21,303 nt of DNA from positions 1-21,303 of IMG/VR virus record IMGVR_UViG_3300045970_000773, one strand, 5' to 3'. Below the pieces are notes generated by a model, which was not told where the DNA came from, made no database searches, and worked only from the letters and a program-made list of their open reading frames with translations. Positions 14,498 to 17,229 of the stretch are shown here, piece by piece (within the stretch, counting starts at the first letter, position 1; the number at the start of each line of letters is the position of its first letter). This stretch comes from a virus. Position numbers and translations under genes: made by a program.

Positions 14498-15144
14498 GCC
14501 CTGCGCCCCGTGCCGGCGGCCCGCTCGTCCATCCTGCGCATGATTGCCAGGAGCGCCTCCCTCGAAAGGTGAGGGTGGGCGCGAAGCTCAGCCTGGATGT
14601 CAACCAGCCTGCCGTCCGAATGGCGGTAGGTGTCGGTCCCGTCCTCGCCGTGCTCGAAGCGGGCTGAGCGGGATTGGGCGACCGCGTTCAGGAAGACATC
14701 CCCGAGTGCGGGCCAGCAGTCACGCGGGATGGTCAGGTTGTCGTTCTCATATCCCGGGTCCGAGAACATCCGGTTCTCTCCGGCCGCCTGGTCTGCGTTC
14801 GGAACCCCGACAAACTCGCCAGGCTCCCAGGAGAGAGACACGCAAACCCAAGCGCGTTCGGACGGGGCACCTTCCGCGAGCCAGACCGTTGTCTCGGCGT
14901 CGAAAGAGGACTTGCGCGCCAAGCTGAAGTCTCCGCCGTCCGGCTTCACCTCAACGTACATCCCGCCCCCGAAGGTCGGTAGGTGGAAGTCCGGCAGGTA
15001 GCGCGTCCCGTCGGACAACTCGAACCCCTCCGGCTCGTACTCCCACTTGATCCCGAGCGCTTCGAAGAAGACCGCCCACCGTGCCTCAAGGCGAGAGCGG
15101 AACCTGAACCCCTTGTACCTGGTCTCGATCGGCTTCACGCTCAC
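14494..15144 (-). CDS. PD-(D/E)XK superfamily nuclease-like protein
   Basis: A 216-residue protein starting at GTG 15144, with a strong GGGGAGG site four bases upstream and a GTGA overlap with the replication gene. The N-terminus 'YKGFRFRSRLEARWAVFFEA' contains the conserved Glu of helix 1. Then follow 'WEYEPEGFEL', 'RYLPDFHLP' with the motif Asp, and 'YVEVKPDGG' with the Glu-x-Lys of the PD-(D/E)XK core. The C-terminal half (about 100-216) is mixed, with a helix 'LSREALLAIMRRMDE'. This small nuclease type is common in phage replication modules. It might process recombination or replication intermediates, or cleave foreign DNA. The fold assignment is good; the substrate is unknown. Confidence 0.8.
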   Translation of the reverse strand: MSVKPIETRYKGFRFRSRLEARWAVFFEALGIKWEYEPEGFELSDGTRYLPDFHLPTFGGGMYVEVKPDGGDFSLARKSSFDAETTVWLAEGAPSERAWVCVSLSWEPGEFVGVPNADQAAGENRMFSDPGYENDNLTIPRDCWPALGDVFLNAVAQSRSARFEHGEDGTDTYRHSDGRLVDIQAELRAHPHLSREALLAIMRRMDERAAGTGRRA

Positions 15145-15956
15145 GGGGCCTCCCCTGCCAGGCGGAGGCGTTCCTTCTCCTCGGGGCGGACGTGGATGAC
15201 GTCGATTCGTGGACCCGGCGATGGTCGGGTGCCGTTGCCCGGAGGCCTGAACTTCTCCTCGTTCCGCGCCCAGTTCCGGGCTGCGGCCTGCCAGTCCTTC
15301 ATGGGGGTCTTCCCTCCTGCTCGCCAGCCGTTCGCCTGGAAGTGGTCGTAAAAAGCCTCGGGCTTGCCAGAGAGCCCCGCCGATCGCCAATAGGCGGCGA
15401 CGACCTCGAGAGACCCGGGCGTGTTCCCGTTTCTGGAAACCTTGAGAGCGCGAGGCGGCGCCGAAGGCGACGCGGGGGGGACGGGGGGCGGAGCCCCCCT
15501 TGCATCCCCCGTTCTCTCTCTCTCTGCTTCTGCTTCTGCTTCTGCTTCTGCTTTGGTCGTATTTGTCGGGACGTGTCGGGTTTTGTCGGGACGTGTCGGG
15601 CGATGCTGTCGGTCCCAGTCGCGCTGGTACTCGCGCCGCGACTCAGCGTCTCGGATGTCGCGGTACTTGGCGTAGTTCACGATCCGGTAAGCGAACTGGC
15701 CCTCTCGGACGAGCCGCCTCCCGTCCTCCTCCTTGGATCGCGACTCGGGGTCTGCCTTCTGGAGGTATTCGAGCGCGGCCTCTACCTCCGGAATCGAACA
15801 GCCGAGGACGATGGCGGCAAGGCGCGGGTTGATCTCGACGTGCCCTTTGGCGTCGGACCTCGAGATGCAGTACGGCCACAGAGCGAAGACGTGGACTCCG
15901 GCCCCTAGCATCGAGCCCTCGTAGAGTCCGGCGAAGATCTTGCCGAATCCGCCCAC
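15141..15956 (-). CDS. Replication initiation protein, O-like, with iterons in its own gene
   Basis: A 271-residue protein starting at GTG 15956 behind a GAAGGAG site. Residues 1-105 look like a winged-helix DNA-binding domain ('INPRLAAIVLGCSIPEVEAA', 'LVREGQFAYRIVNYAKYRDI'), the pattern seen in phage replication organisers. Residues about 105-175 form a charged and low-complexity linker with an Ala-Glu repeat and a Pro-rich part. Residues 183-236 (AAYWRSAGLSGKPEAFYDHF, MKDWQAAARNWARN) resemble the C-terminal helicase-binding domain of O/DnaT-like proteins. The gene directly follows the helicase-like genes. The linker-coding DNA carries the repeats listed separately, as lambda O carries ori. 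Function is inferred from domain order and context. Confidence 0.75.
   Translation of the reverse strand: MGGFGKIFAGLYEGSMLGAGVHVFALWPYCISRSDAKGHVEINPRLAAIVLGCSIPEVEAALEYLQKADPESRSKEEDGRRLVREGQFAYRIVNYAKYRDIRDAESRREYQRDWDRQHRPTRPDKTRHVPTNTTKAEAEAEAEAERERTGDARGAPPPVPPASPSAPPRALKVSRNGNTPGSLEVVAAYWRSAGLSGKPEAFYDHFQANGWRAGGKTPMKDWQAAARNWARNEEKFRPPGNGTRPSPGPRIDVIHVRPEEKERLRLAGEAP
15483..15499. repeat. Perfect GC hairpin beside the candidate origin
   Basis: GGGGGGC and GCCCCCC form a perfect 7-bp inverted repeat with a three-base loop. It lies in the Pro-codon stretch of the replication gene, just downstream of the polypyrimidine and iteron repeats in transcription direction. It could be a structure used at an origin, or simply a by-product of Pro and Ala codons in GC-rich DNA. 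Confidence 0.4.
15513..15552. repeat. Polypyrimidine microsatellite: CT run plus five TCTGCT hexamers
   Basis: On the plus strand a TC-dinucleotide run (15513-15524) continues into five perfect TCTGCT units (15523-15552). On the coding strand this gives in-frame Ala-Glu repeats and then Glu-Arg. The strand asymmetry is extreme, with almost no purines other than G on the plus strand, and the local GC is clearly lower than that of the surrounding DNA. It adjoins the iterons, so it may be the easily melted side of an origin. Confidence 0.75.
15561..15600. repeat. Iteron-like array: two tandem 20-bp repeats, four TGTCGGG units at 10-bp spacing (candidate origin)
   Basis: Two adjacent 20-base units differ at one position. 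Each contains two TGTCGGG elements, so TGTCGGG starts at 15564, 15574, 15584 and 15594, spaced exactly 10 bases, one helical turn. A partial fifth copy follows (TGTCGG near 15607). The 20-base period is not a multiple of three, so the encoded peptides differ between copies; selection on DNA rather than protein is therefore likely. Position in the middle of an O-like gene matches lambdoid origins. Confidence 0.7.
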
Positions 15957-15971: not shown

Positions 15972-16826
15972 TCATCCGAACCTCGCTTGTGCTGGGTCGA
16001 AGGTGAGTTCCCACTTGCCAGTGAGCCCATATTTATTTTTGGCTTGGCTGAACACCCGCTTCATCCCGGTCGGGTCCGTGTCCACCGCCTCGAGCTGGAA
16101 GAACGCATCGAGGTCCGCGAACATGGCGGAGGTCCCGCGTGCCCGCTGCCAGCCCTCGCGCCCGGGCGTCGCCTTGATCTGGTGGTGGACGAGGAGGAAG
16201 GTCGTCCCGTGGCGGGCGATGAGGTCGCGAAGCGGCTTCATCACCTGGGCCTTCCACTCGACGGCCGAGTTTTCGTCGCCCTTCCAGAAGTAGCCGATCG
16301 TGTCGAGGATGACCAGCTCGGCCTTGGACTTGCGGATCATCGCCTCGAGGGTGTGCCCGCCGATCTGGTAGTCCGTGACGCCCTGGCGCTGGATAAACCA
16401 TCCGGTTCCGGTTGGGATCCCGAGGGACTCCCGGGCGGTCCGGACACGTCCCTGGAAGGCCCCGCGCGATCCCTCGGCGCTCACGTAGAGCGTCTGGAAC
16501 GCGCGGCCCACCGGTGCGTCGTACCAGGGGGAACGGCCCGCGGAGAGGCAGAGTGCGAGTTGGACGAGGAGGGTCGTCTTCCCGACGGCCGGGTCCGCGA
16601 CGACCATGCCGACAGACCCGCGGGCGAGGCTCCCTCCGATGATCCAGTCGAAGTCCGTGTTCCGTTCGGCGAGAAACTCGTCGAGCTGGGTGACCGGGGC
16701 TTCCTCGGCCTCCTCCCCCGTGATGTCGGAGATGTAGGCTCGGCACTCGGCCAGATTCGTCAGGAGTCGCGTCTCCTCGGCCCGGAGCCGCTCGAGCTGC
16801 GCTTCTTGGCTCCTACGTGGTGGCAT
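15972..16826 (-). CDS. RepA/RecA-like replicative helicase ATPase (AAA_25 type)
   Basis: A 284-residue P-loop ATPase. After an N-terminal coiled coil (1-35) and a linker comes the RecA-like core. It has Walker A 'VADPAVGKTTLL' with Lys83, 'LYVSAEGSRG' (113-122), Walker B 'ELVILDTIGY' with Asp175, 'FLLVHHQIKATPG' (210-222) and 'RARGTSAMFADLD' (228-240). This is the motif series of RepA/DnaB-type hexameric helicases and AAA_25 proteins. ATG 16826 has GGAGG seven bases upstream and lies 14 bases inside the preceding DnaB-N gene in another frame. Together the two genes look like a DnaB split at the domain linker. It probably unwinds DNA at the phage origin, loaded by the following O-like protein. 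Confidence 0.85.
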   Translation of the reverse strand: MPPRRSQEAQLERLRAEETRLLTNLAECRAYISDITGEEAEEAPVTQLDEFLAERNTDFDWIIGGSLARGSVGMVVADPAVGKTTLLVQLALCLSAGRSPWYDAPVGRAFQTLYVSAEGSRGAFQGRVRTARESLGIPTGTGWFIQRQGVTDYQIGGHTLEAMIRKSKAELVILDTIGYFWKGDENSAVEWKAQVMKPLRDLIARHGTTFLLVHHQIKATPGREGWQRARGTSAMFADLDAFFQLEAVDTDPTGMKRVFSQAKNKYGLTGKWELTFDPAQARFG

Positions 16827-17229
16827 CTGGCGGCCTCCGTTGCCATGCGTCGATTCGCCGGTCCCGTGCCGCCGTCTTGATCGCCCTCACGTACTCCCGG
16901 ACCATGACCTCGTCGACGGCGTCGGGGATGTGAAGGAGCGCCGTGAACCAGTCAGGCGCCCCCGCGGGTGGTCGGACCCCGCGACGCTCGAGCTCCACGG
17001 ACACGAGCTGGAGGTTCGGCCTCGGCTGCCCCGGCTTGAGCATCTCCTTGGTCGTCTGGAAGACGGCGCCGTGGCCAGGGTCCGCGAAGTCGGCCGGGGC
17101 GAGCCCGTCACACTCGAGGATCCCGGAGATGTCCGCGAAGAGCGACCCGAGGAGGTAGCGCTCGACGACGCCGATGGCGCCGCCCTCGTGCTCCCAGCGC
17201 CAGACGGAGGGGACGTAGGCCTCGCTCAT
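16813..17229 (-). CDS. Stand-alone DnaB helicase N-terminal domain
   Basis: A 138-residue protein consisting only of a DnaB-N-like helical domain: 'VVERYLLGSLFADISGI', 'LAPADFADPGHGAVFQTTKE', 'LQLVSVELERRG', 'WFTALLHIPDAVDEVMVREY' and 'IKTAARDRRIDAW'. In complete DnaB this domain forms the dimeric collar that contacts primase and loader. There is no P-loop. The RecA-like ATPase is encoded by the next, overlapping gene. The gene is the first of the minus-strand replication operon. Its ATG at 17229 faces the plus-strand RHH gene across a 91-base control region with a palindrome. No good ribosome site precedes the ATG, so the leader may be very short. Confidence 0.85.
   Translation of the reverse strand: MSEAYVPSVWRWEHEGGAIGVVERYLLGSLFADISGILECDGLAPADFADPGHGAVFQTTKEMLKPGQPRPNLQLVSVELERRGVRPPAGAPDWFTALLHIPDAVDEVMVREYVRAIKTAARDRRIDAWQRRPPDATT

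Follow-up and report, generated by a model that had tools for sequence, protein, structure and literature searches.

Introduction

Phage origins of replication are rarely recognisable from sequence. In lambda and the Stx phages the origin lies within gene O, where several iterons are followed directly by an unwinding region and where the protein lengthens when iterons are added (PMC7466680). Here we describe a two-part element in an initiator-like gene of a 21,303-base IMG/VR virus record (IMGVR_UViG_3300045970_000773; this whole stretch is called the window), in which short repeats at 10-bp steps adjoin a six-base-periodic purine tract. In all likelihood it is the replication origin of the phage, situated in the linker of the initiator gene; we infer initiator binding and origin activity from its architecture and conservation. 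It would thus be of the same general kind as the in-gene origins of lambda and Tuc2009, and in detail its architecture is different and apparently undescribed. Literature searches yielded no description of the composite, the lactococcal phage origin literature being only partly covered and prior art there possible.

As in lambda, the element lies inside the initiator gene, in a linker, and its iterons are directly followed by a second part. However, its repeats are direct and follow one another at steps of about 10 bp, whereas the lambda iterons are roughly 18 bp, and where lambda has an AT-rich unwinding region it has hexamers in an ordered array with a GC content of about 50%. The window protein also has no Phage_rep_O match.

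The origin of phage r1t has reportedly been mapped. The rep gene of Tuc2009 (GenBank AF109874, annotated 'contains origin of replication') and ORF11 of r1t (U38906) possess iterons at 10-11 bp (CAACC and GGAACC, respectively) followed in the replication-gene linker by an A/G-rich short-period tract, as in the window, but they belong to another protein family and to other hosts, and their tracts have a 5-bp instead of a 6-bp period and TAG instead of CAG triplets. In the rep gene of TP901-1, whose product is a different protein, the layout is only weakly developed. Plasmids of the repABC type likewise have their origin within the initiator's own coding sequence, but this is a plasmid system with an AT-rich origin that lacks the iteron/hexamer composite. 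The gene concerned there is repC (PMC3155836).

A further resemblance is to the bacterial unwinding system of DnaA boxes and DnaA-trios, in which double-stranded binding sites adjoin a repeat of short period and strand asymmetry that determines where the strands open (PMC8287927); the window element also has putative binding sites beside such a repeat. Identity with the DnaA-trio was rejected, as the (.A.)n register is broken by GCAGAG, GCAGAT and GCAGAC, and position 6 is A in only 83 of 143 loci (58%). The strand opposite the tract, (TTCTGC)n, is also an unbroken 5'-TnnT-3' series and in this recalls the DnaD Recognition Element, a T-periodic strand opposite an unwinding repeat (PMC10201434), but variants such as GTCTGA break the TnnT periodicity, and the likeness is at the level of the repeat. 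Since three lambda features failed (iteron type, AT-rich region and O family), as did the DnaA-trio register, the element was filed under neither system. What it has of the general layout of in-gene iteron origins (lambda, Tuc2009, r1t) is a winged-helix replication gene that contains a set of repeated short sites and, adjoining them, an asymmetric tract.

The element in the window

Positions of the features are collected in Table 1. On the plus strand TGTCGGG begins at 15564, 15574, 15584 and 15594, within two tandem 20-bp units, exactly as the initial annotation had described. With a Tandem Repeats Finder (TRF) score of 78 the array is the highest-scoring tandem repeat of the window, and only three further copies of the heptamer, counting either strand, occur in the 21.3 kb. 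Self-matches at lags of 8-30 bp extend to 19 bases, and to no more than 14 in 200 shuffles. A partial fifth copy had also been reported; TGTCGG is indeed present at 15607, but it is out of phase with the 10-bp array and this detail is weak.

On the plus strand the adjoining tract reads (CT)n at 15512-15522 and (TCTGCT)5.2 at 15523-15553 (TRF period 6), so that on the coding strand the CCCGACA iterons come first and (GCAGAA)n second. Its GC content is 0.50 versus 0.66 for the gene, the lowest-GC 40-mers of the gene fall within it, and on the minus strand it is 88% purine. The 10-bp copies stand in different reading frames and encode different peptides, RPTRPDKTRHVPTNTT, followed by KAEAEAEAEAE. 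Relatives of the iterons, of the TCCGAC class, are found in four homologous loci (L078, L116, L160 and L216).

Conservation among homologs

The main statistics rest on 236 non-redundant homologs retrieved by their N-terminal domain only. A first set of 65 viral loci was biased, because AEAEAEAE had served as the search peptide, and was excluded from them; most of its linkers had several copies of a short word at steps of about 10 bp leading into a GCAGAA/GCAGAG array, the word differing between phages. Homologs lacking the repeats were looked for, and most homologs carry them. A GCAGAR tract with a score of at least 17 was found in 152 of the 236, the maximum in 396 shuffles being 13. It lies on the coding strand of the linker in 140 of these, on the antisense strand of the linker in five, just after the stop codon in four, and upstream and inverted in three; judged by position only, the element is thus inside the initiator-gene linker in 145 of 152. 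Most homologs without GCAGAR have other short-period tracts (ACAGAT, TCAGAC, GTAGAT, CCAACA or GGAGAA). A six-base periodicity of at least 14/18 occurs in 76% of homologs versus 0.8% of codon shuffles. Overall, 76-88% possess a six-base-periodic tract, which the last iteron usually abuts.

Chains of at least three iterons are present in 83% of scorable loci versus 3% of shuffles, and chains of at least four in 65% versus 0.2%. The iterons are mostly GTNNNC at 9-11 bp steps. About 50 cores were called, the commonest being GTAACG, GTCAAC, GTAAGC and GTGGAC; the calling required GT-initial seeds, and an unseeded analysis likewise ranks GT-initial words top. Autocorrelation restricted to the linkers peaks at 10, 20, 30 and 40 bp, with no such peaks in N- and C-terminal coding controls, which bears out the earlier proposal of a spacing of one helical turn, unlike that of lambda. 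The GT dinucleotide peaks near -10, -20, -30 and -40 from the first GCAGA, and since these peaks are phased to the start of the tract, iterons and tract are in register.

The hexamer consensus over 143 loci is G88 C90 A97 G92 A96 N. The tract is T-poor, and its GCAGAN hexamer is the same in genes of 36-69% GC. Its GC content is 0.50-0.51 whatever that of the genome, and in genes below 50% GC the tract exceeds the gene (0.50 vs 0.47). An AT-rich DNA unwinding element was rejected for the tract on these values. The flanking polypyrimidine repeat of the initial annotation is present, with a GC content below that of the gene, but it is a conserved half of the element and not a bystander or an AT-rich melting region.

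In two loci the linker contains an additional segment just before the putative origin. That of L183 has an HNH-like motif (CGICSD..HIDHIIPLS..CNHIK) and that of L049 resembles GIY-YIG/T5orf172, as though nucleases of the homing type had inserted there.

Selection at the DNA level

The two-part element is selected as DNA, with its geometry conserved and its iteron sequence lineage-specific. A codon test on tracts defined by their DNA would be circular and was redone on stretches defined by peptide. Across 87 such (A[ED])3+ stretches every Ala codon is GCA (381/381), compared with 130 of 1,106 elsewhere in high-GC genes. The tract DNA is translated as AE, SR or KQ and, when reversed, as SA; all three frames are used and antisense is rare. 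The steps of 9-11 bp between iterons do not follow codon length, which also argues for selection on DNA.

The element also exists outside the gene. Homologs with a protein that stops after the winged helix (median 145 versus 280 amino acids) have it immediately downstream of the stop codon (L141, L184, L190, L389, L159 and L218) or upstream and inverted (L080, L096, L136, L020 and L082). These relocated elements keep their polarity: read along the purine strand, the iterons precede the purine tract. Together with the fixed codons and the varied peptides, they sustain the earlier claim that the repeats are conserved as DNA and not as peptide. In the non-coding elements of L218 and L159 the tract spacing is loosened (7, 7, 6 nt) and stop codons are present, which is consistent with coding constraint helping to hold the strict 6-nt phase in genes.

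Other initiator families and cultured phages

A scan of IMG/VR for (AAGCAG)4 alone gave 119 matches, 60 of which adjoin a winged-helix gene of the window type; a reverse test with a chain not seeded on GT, for which the null was 27%, was used qualitatively only. Other matches lie in genes of other initiator families (Table 1), beside different iterons or palindromes, and several of the remainder are unrelated coding repeats. In L550, L514, L584 and L573 the GCAGAA tract abuts palindromes (CCTAATAGG, TTTGCACGTGCAAA, GGGGTTAACCCC); the genes are of a WxDWxxD..CSLAARGLWM type and a DUF1376-like type, both uncharacterised initiator-like families. The gene at L487:7430-8056(-) shares C-terminal domain PHROGs with the window protein, whereas its N-domain is DUF6291, the two parts being joined at the iteron/tract linker. 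A common C-domain with different N-domains suggests recombination at the origin that swaps initiator specificity.

The composite reaches cultured phages, namely Escherichia phages Evi and Tritos, Pseudomonas (P. aeruginosa) phage phi1 and Aeromonas phage pAEv1818. Relatives of the Evi gene are found in prophages of 2,270 of 5,426 complete E. coli genomes (~42%). Among members of this second initiator family that are ~83-100% identical to Evi, the GTCACG iterons are conserved and the intervening bases are changed, tract lengths vary by 6 or 12 nt, and one member has a compensated +1/-1 shift between intact iterons. In the prophage of E. coli APEC-O117H42 (L596) the initiator is annotated as two broken pieces; its iterons are intact and its tract is 12 nt shorter. 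A DNA search with the Evi gene matched Enterococcus phage phiEf11 precisely over iterons and tract. The PF09681-type genes of Staphylococcus, Streptococcus, Listeria and Ruminococcus phages have the same iteron/tract layout, which was not seen in a Bacillus phage relative of these genes.

The same geometry, with changing letters, is thus present in hundreds of diverse bacterial viruses, including those of E. coli and dairy bacteria, and very probably marks the replication start of each. Ten-bp-phased repeats abutting a six-base-periodic tract, in or beside a winged-helix gene, provide a signature by which candidate origins can be assigned in hundreds of uncultured phages, and the pairs of initiator and iteron, whose sites come in about 50 different sequences, form a natural series. 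The element also makes it possible to ask, in laboratory E. coli strains, which bases of a phage origin are opened and primed first and by what they are specified.

Probable origin of replication and alternative explanations

An iteron origin within the gene, as the initial annotation had proposed, is the best explanation of these data. Copies of the winged-helix domain encoded by the gene would bind next to each other at the iterons, all on the same face of the DNA, and the bound initiator would position strand opening at the abutting tract. A DnaB-type helicase, encoded next door in many such phages, could then be loaded at the opened tract, with priming to follow. Placing the origin within the initiator gene would keep specificity and site genetically linked during phage recombination. 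Iteron cores are common to 67% of pairs at 80-90% N-domain identity and to ~5% at 50-60%; this fall fits co-diverging initiator and site, though it could also arise from common descent alone.

Several observations weigh against this explanation. A minority of homologs have no recognisable element, and in ~3% the tract is reversed relative to the iterons, which is unexpected under a strictly strand-specific model. The AE frame is used in 124 of 141 in-gene cases, which points to some peptide or phase preference. Residue-iteron covariation signals are spread over the N-domain and confounded by relatedness. The GC-skew inflection at the element, put forward earlier as a check, is weak and at most mildly suggestive (R-L +0.028, n=11 loci long enough, t=1.56).

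Of the alternatives, an R-loop origin survives best, although we regard it as unlikely. Transcribed purine-rich RNA would hybridise stably to the pyrimidine strand and so open the origin, and the purine strand is the coding strand in the great majority of tract-positive homologs (140/152). Transcription is, moreover, known to activate the lambda origin. Yet in the upstream-inverted elements (L080, L096, L136 and L020) and the antisense in-gene tracts, RNA made from the gene's promoter would be of the wrong sense, and the phased iterons are left unexplained.

It is more improbable still that the iterons are an operator for autoregulation, whether negative or positive, of the operon by the winged-helix protein, the tract being incidental. 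Plasmid Rep proteins often autoregulate, and in L080, L096, L136 and L082 the element is upstream, where an operator could be. In most loci, however, >350 bp of the gene precede it, and in others it follows the stop codon; a conserved tract at a fixed spacing from the iterons has no role in an operator; and the setting is one of replication modules beside helicases, with the Tuc2009 gene annotated as containing the origin.

Slippage in a tolerant, disordered linker might expand hexamers and short repeats neutrally; interdomain linkers are permissive, and the E. coli prophage tracts do differ by 6 or 12 nt. This is nevertheless very improbable given the invariant GCA codons across divergent genes, a hexamer unchanged at 36-69% GC, iterons whose 9-11 bp steps are not multiples of 3 and are phased to the tract, their survival of a compensated frameshift, and the retention of the element where it is non-coding or lies inverted beyond the gene. 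Equally remote is selection of (AE)n, (SR)n or (KQ)n for a peptide-level function in the initiator, be it that of a charged helix or of a flexible linker, for although the AE frame is preferred, AE is replaced by SR, KQ, SA, DT, VD, SG and PT peptides, codon choice is fixed and the element persists untranslated.

With an origin as the preferred explanation, the role of the tract can be considered. Because it stays at 50% GC, and in AT-rich phages thus exceeds its gene in GC, its sequence and not its ease of melting is probably what is read, and because it is common to different initiators while the iterons differ, a common factor would be its natural reader. It is conceivable, though we hold this only tentatively and consider it doubtful, that different winged-helix initiator families of phages with Gram-negative and Gram-positive hosts share a module in which interchangeable, initiator-specific phased iterons are joined at fixed spacing to an initiator-independent short-period array, and that such a factor reads the array, DnaG primase being the most plausible candidate. 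Opposite GCAGAN, 5'-CTG-3' recurs every six bases, and opposite TAG the triplet is 5'-CTA-3'. CTG is the start triplet of E. coli primase, and CTA that of the B. subtilis and S. aureus enzymes (PMC5429622). TAG exceeds CAG in 18 loci versus 2 among Bacillota-type tracts, which were located by purine content only, a few of the intervals being clearly misplaced, and in 15 versus 177 in the window-type family. CAG is enriched 3.7-fold in tracts of the window family; in Bacillota-type genes TAG is enriched 3.7-fold and CAG is not. These triplet comparisons are confounded by composition and lineage, and known hosts cover only a minority of the uncultured phages.

The initiator gene and its neighbourhood

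Table 1. Location of the element, its gene and neighbouring replication genes in the window, and loci at which other initiator families carry the tract
Feature	Position or locus	Strand	Basis or description
Iteron array	15562..15600	-	four CCCGACA (TGTCGGG on +) at exact 10-bp steps; perfect 20-bp x 2
Six-base-periodic purine tract adjoining iterons	15512..15556	-	coding strand (GCAGAA)5 then (GA)n
Initiator-like gene	15141..15956	-	open reading frame and translation; GTG start, 271 amino acids; winged-helix N-domain, linker, C-terminal domain
Winged-helix N-domain, residues 1-119	15600..15956	-	AlphaFold2
Predicted recognition helix (~residues 55-66), wing (82-92) and long C-helix (95-117)	within N-domain	-	AlphaFold2
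C-terminal domain, residues ~178-257	15186..15425	-	common to phrog_28809/phrog_15768
AAA_25 (RepA/DnaB-like) helicase ATPase, 284 amino acids, adjacent replication gene	15972..16826	-	Pfam AAA_25 2.6e-28
Small separate protein, DnaB N-terminal domain, 138 amino acids	16813..17229	-	Pfam DnaB 5.4e-07
DUF6291 initiator family with tract	L487		
SWLRLW..DPKWR type with tract	L525, L553, L569		matching phrog_3729 replication initiation protein
phrog_16167/1408 initiator family with tract	L565		
DnaT-like initiator with tract	L511		
phrog_2447 initiator family with tract	L503		

A Pfam search of the initiator protein returned no family, Phage_rep_O included; 2 of 19 homologs had weak HTH_36 matches, and its weak PHROG matches are named 'replication initiation protein'. 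Applied to 96 N-domains, AlphaFold2 predicted a confident winged helix (pLDDT 89.8, pTM 0.77). In Foldseek searches the named viral matches of this domain are largely replisome organizers and replication proteins; against the PDB there was no match at E<=0.001, generic winged helices being found along with 1hkq (RepA) and RepE54 as weak matches (E 0.2-0.4).

With four family members as queries and E limits of 1e-3 to 1, tblastn found no homolog in 50,697 GenBank phages; another query taken from the window as a control matched 132 records. The window-type family is therefore known essentially from metagenomes and from prophages in assemblies, its homologs occurring in genome assemblies of Polyangiaceae, Chromatiales, Planctomycetota, Verrucomicrobia, Solimonas, Thermomonas and others. 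The term 'O-like' first given to the gene accordingly holds for its layout and fold class but not for its protein family.

Helicase domains (AAA_25, DnaB) were detected in roughly 20 of 45 open reading frames downstream of family initiator genes; this neighbourhood was assessed with Pfam, single-sequence phmmer being too insensitive. The replication module of the window comprises the AAA_25 helicase, the DnaB N-domain protein and a serine recombinase, and a Mu-like portal and terminase are encoded elsewhere in the window. Across 15972-17229 (-) the DnaB N-terminal domain and the helicase ATPase are specified by separate, slightly overlapping genes, like a split replicative helicase.
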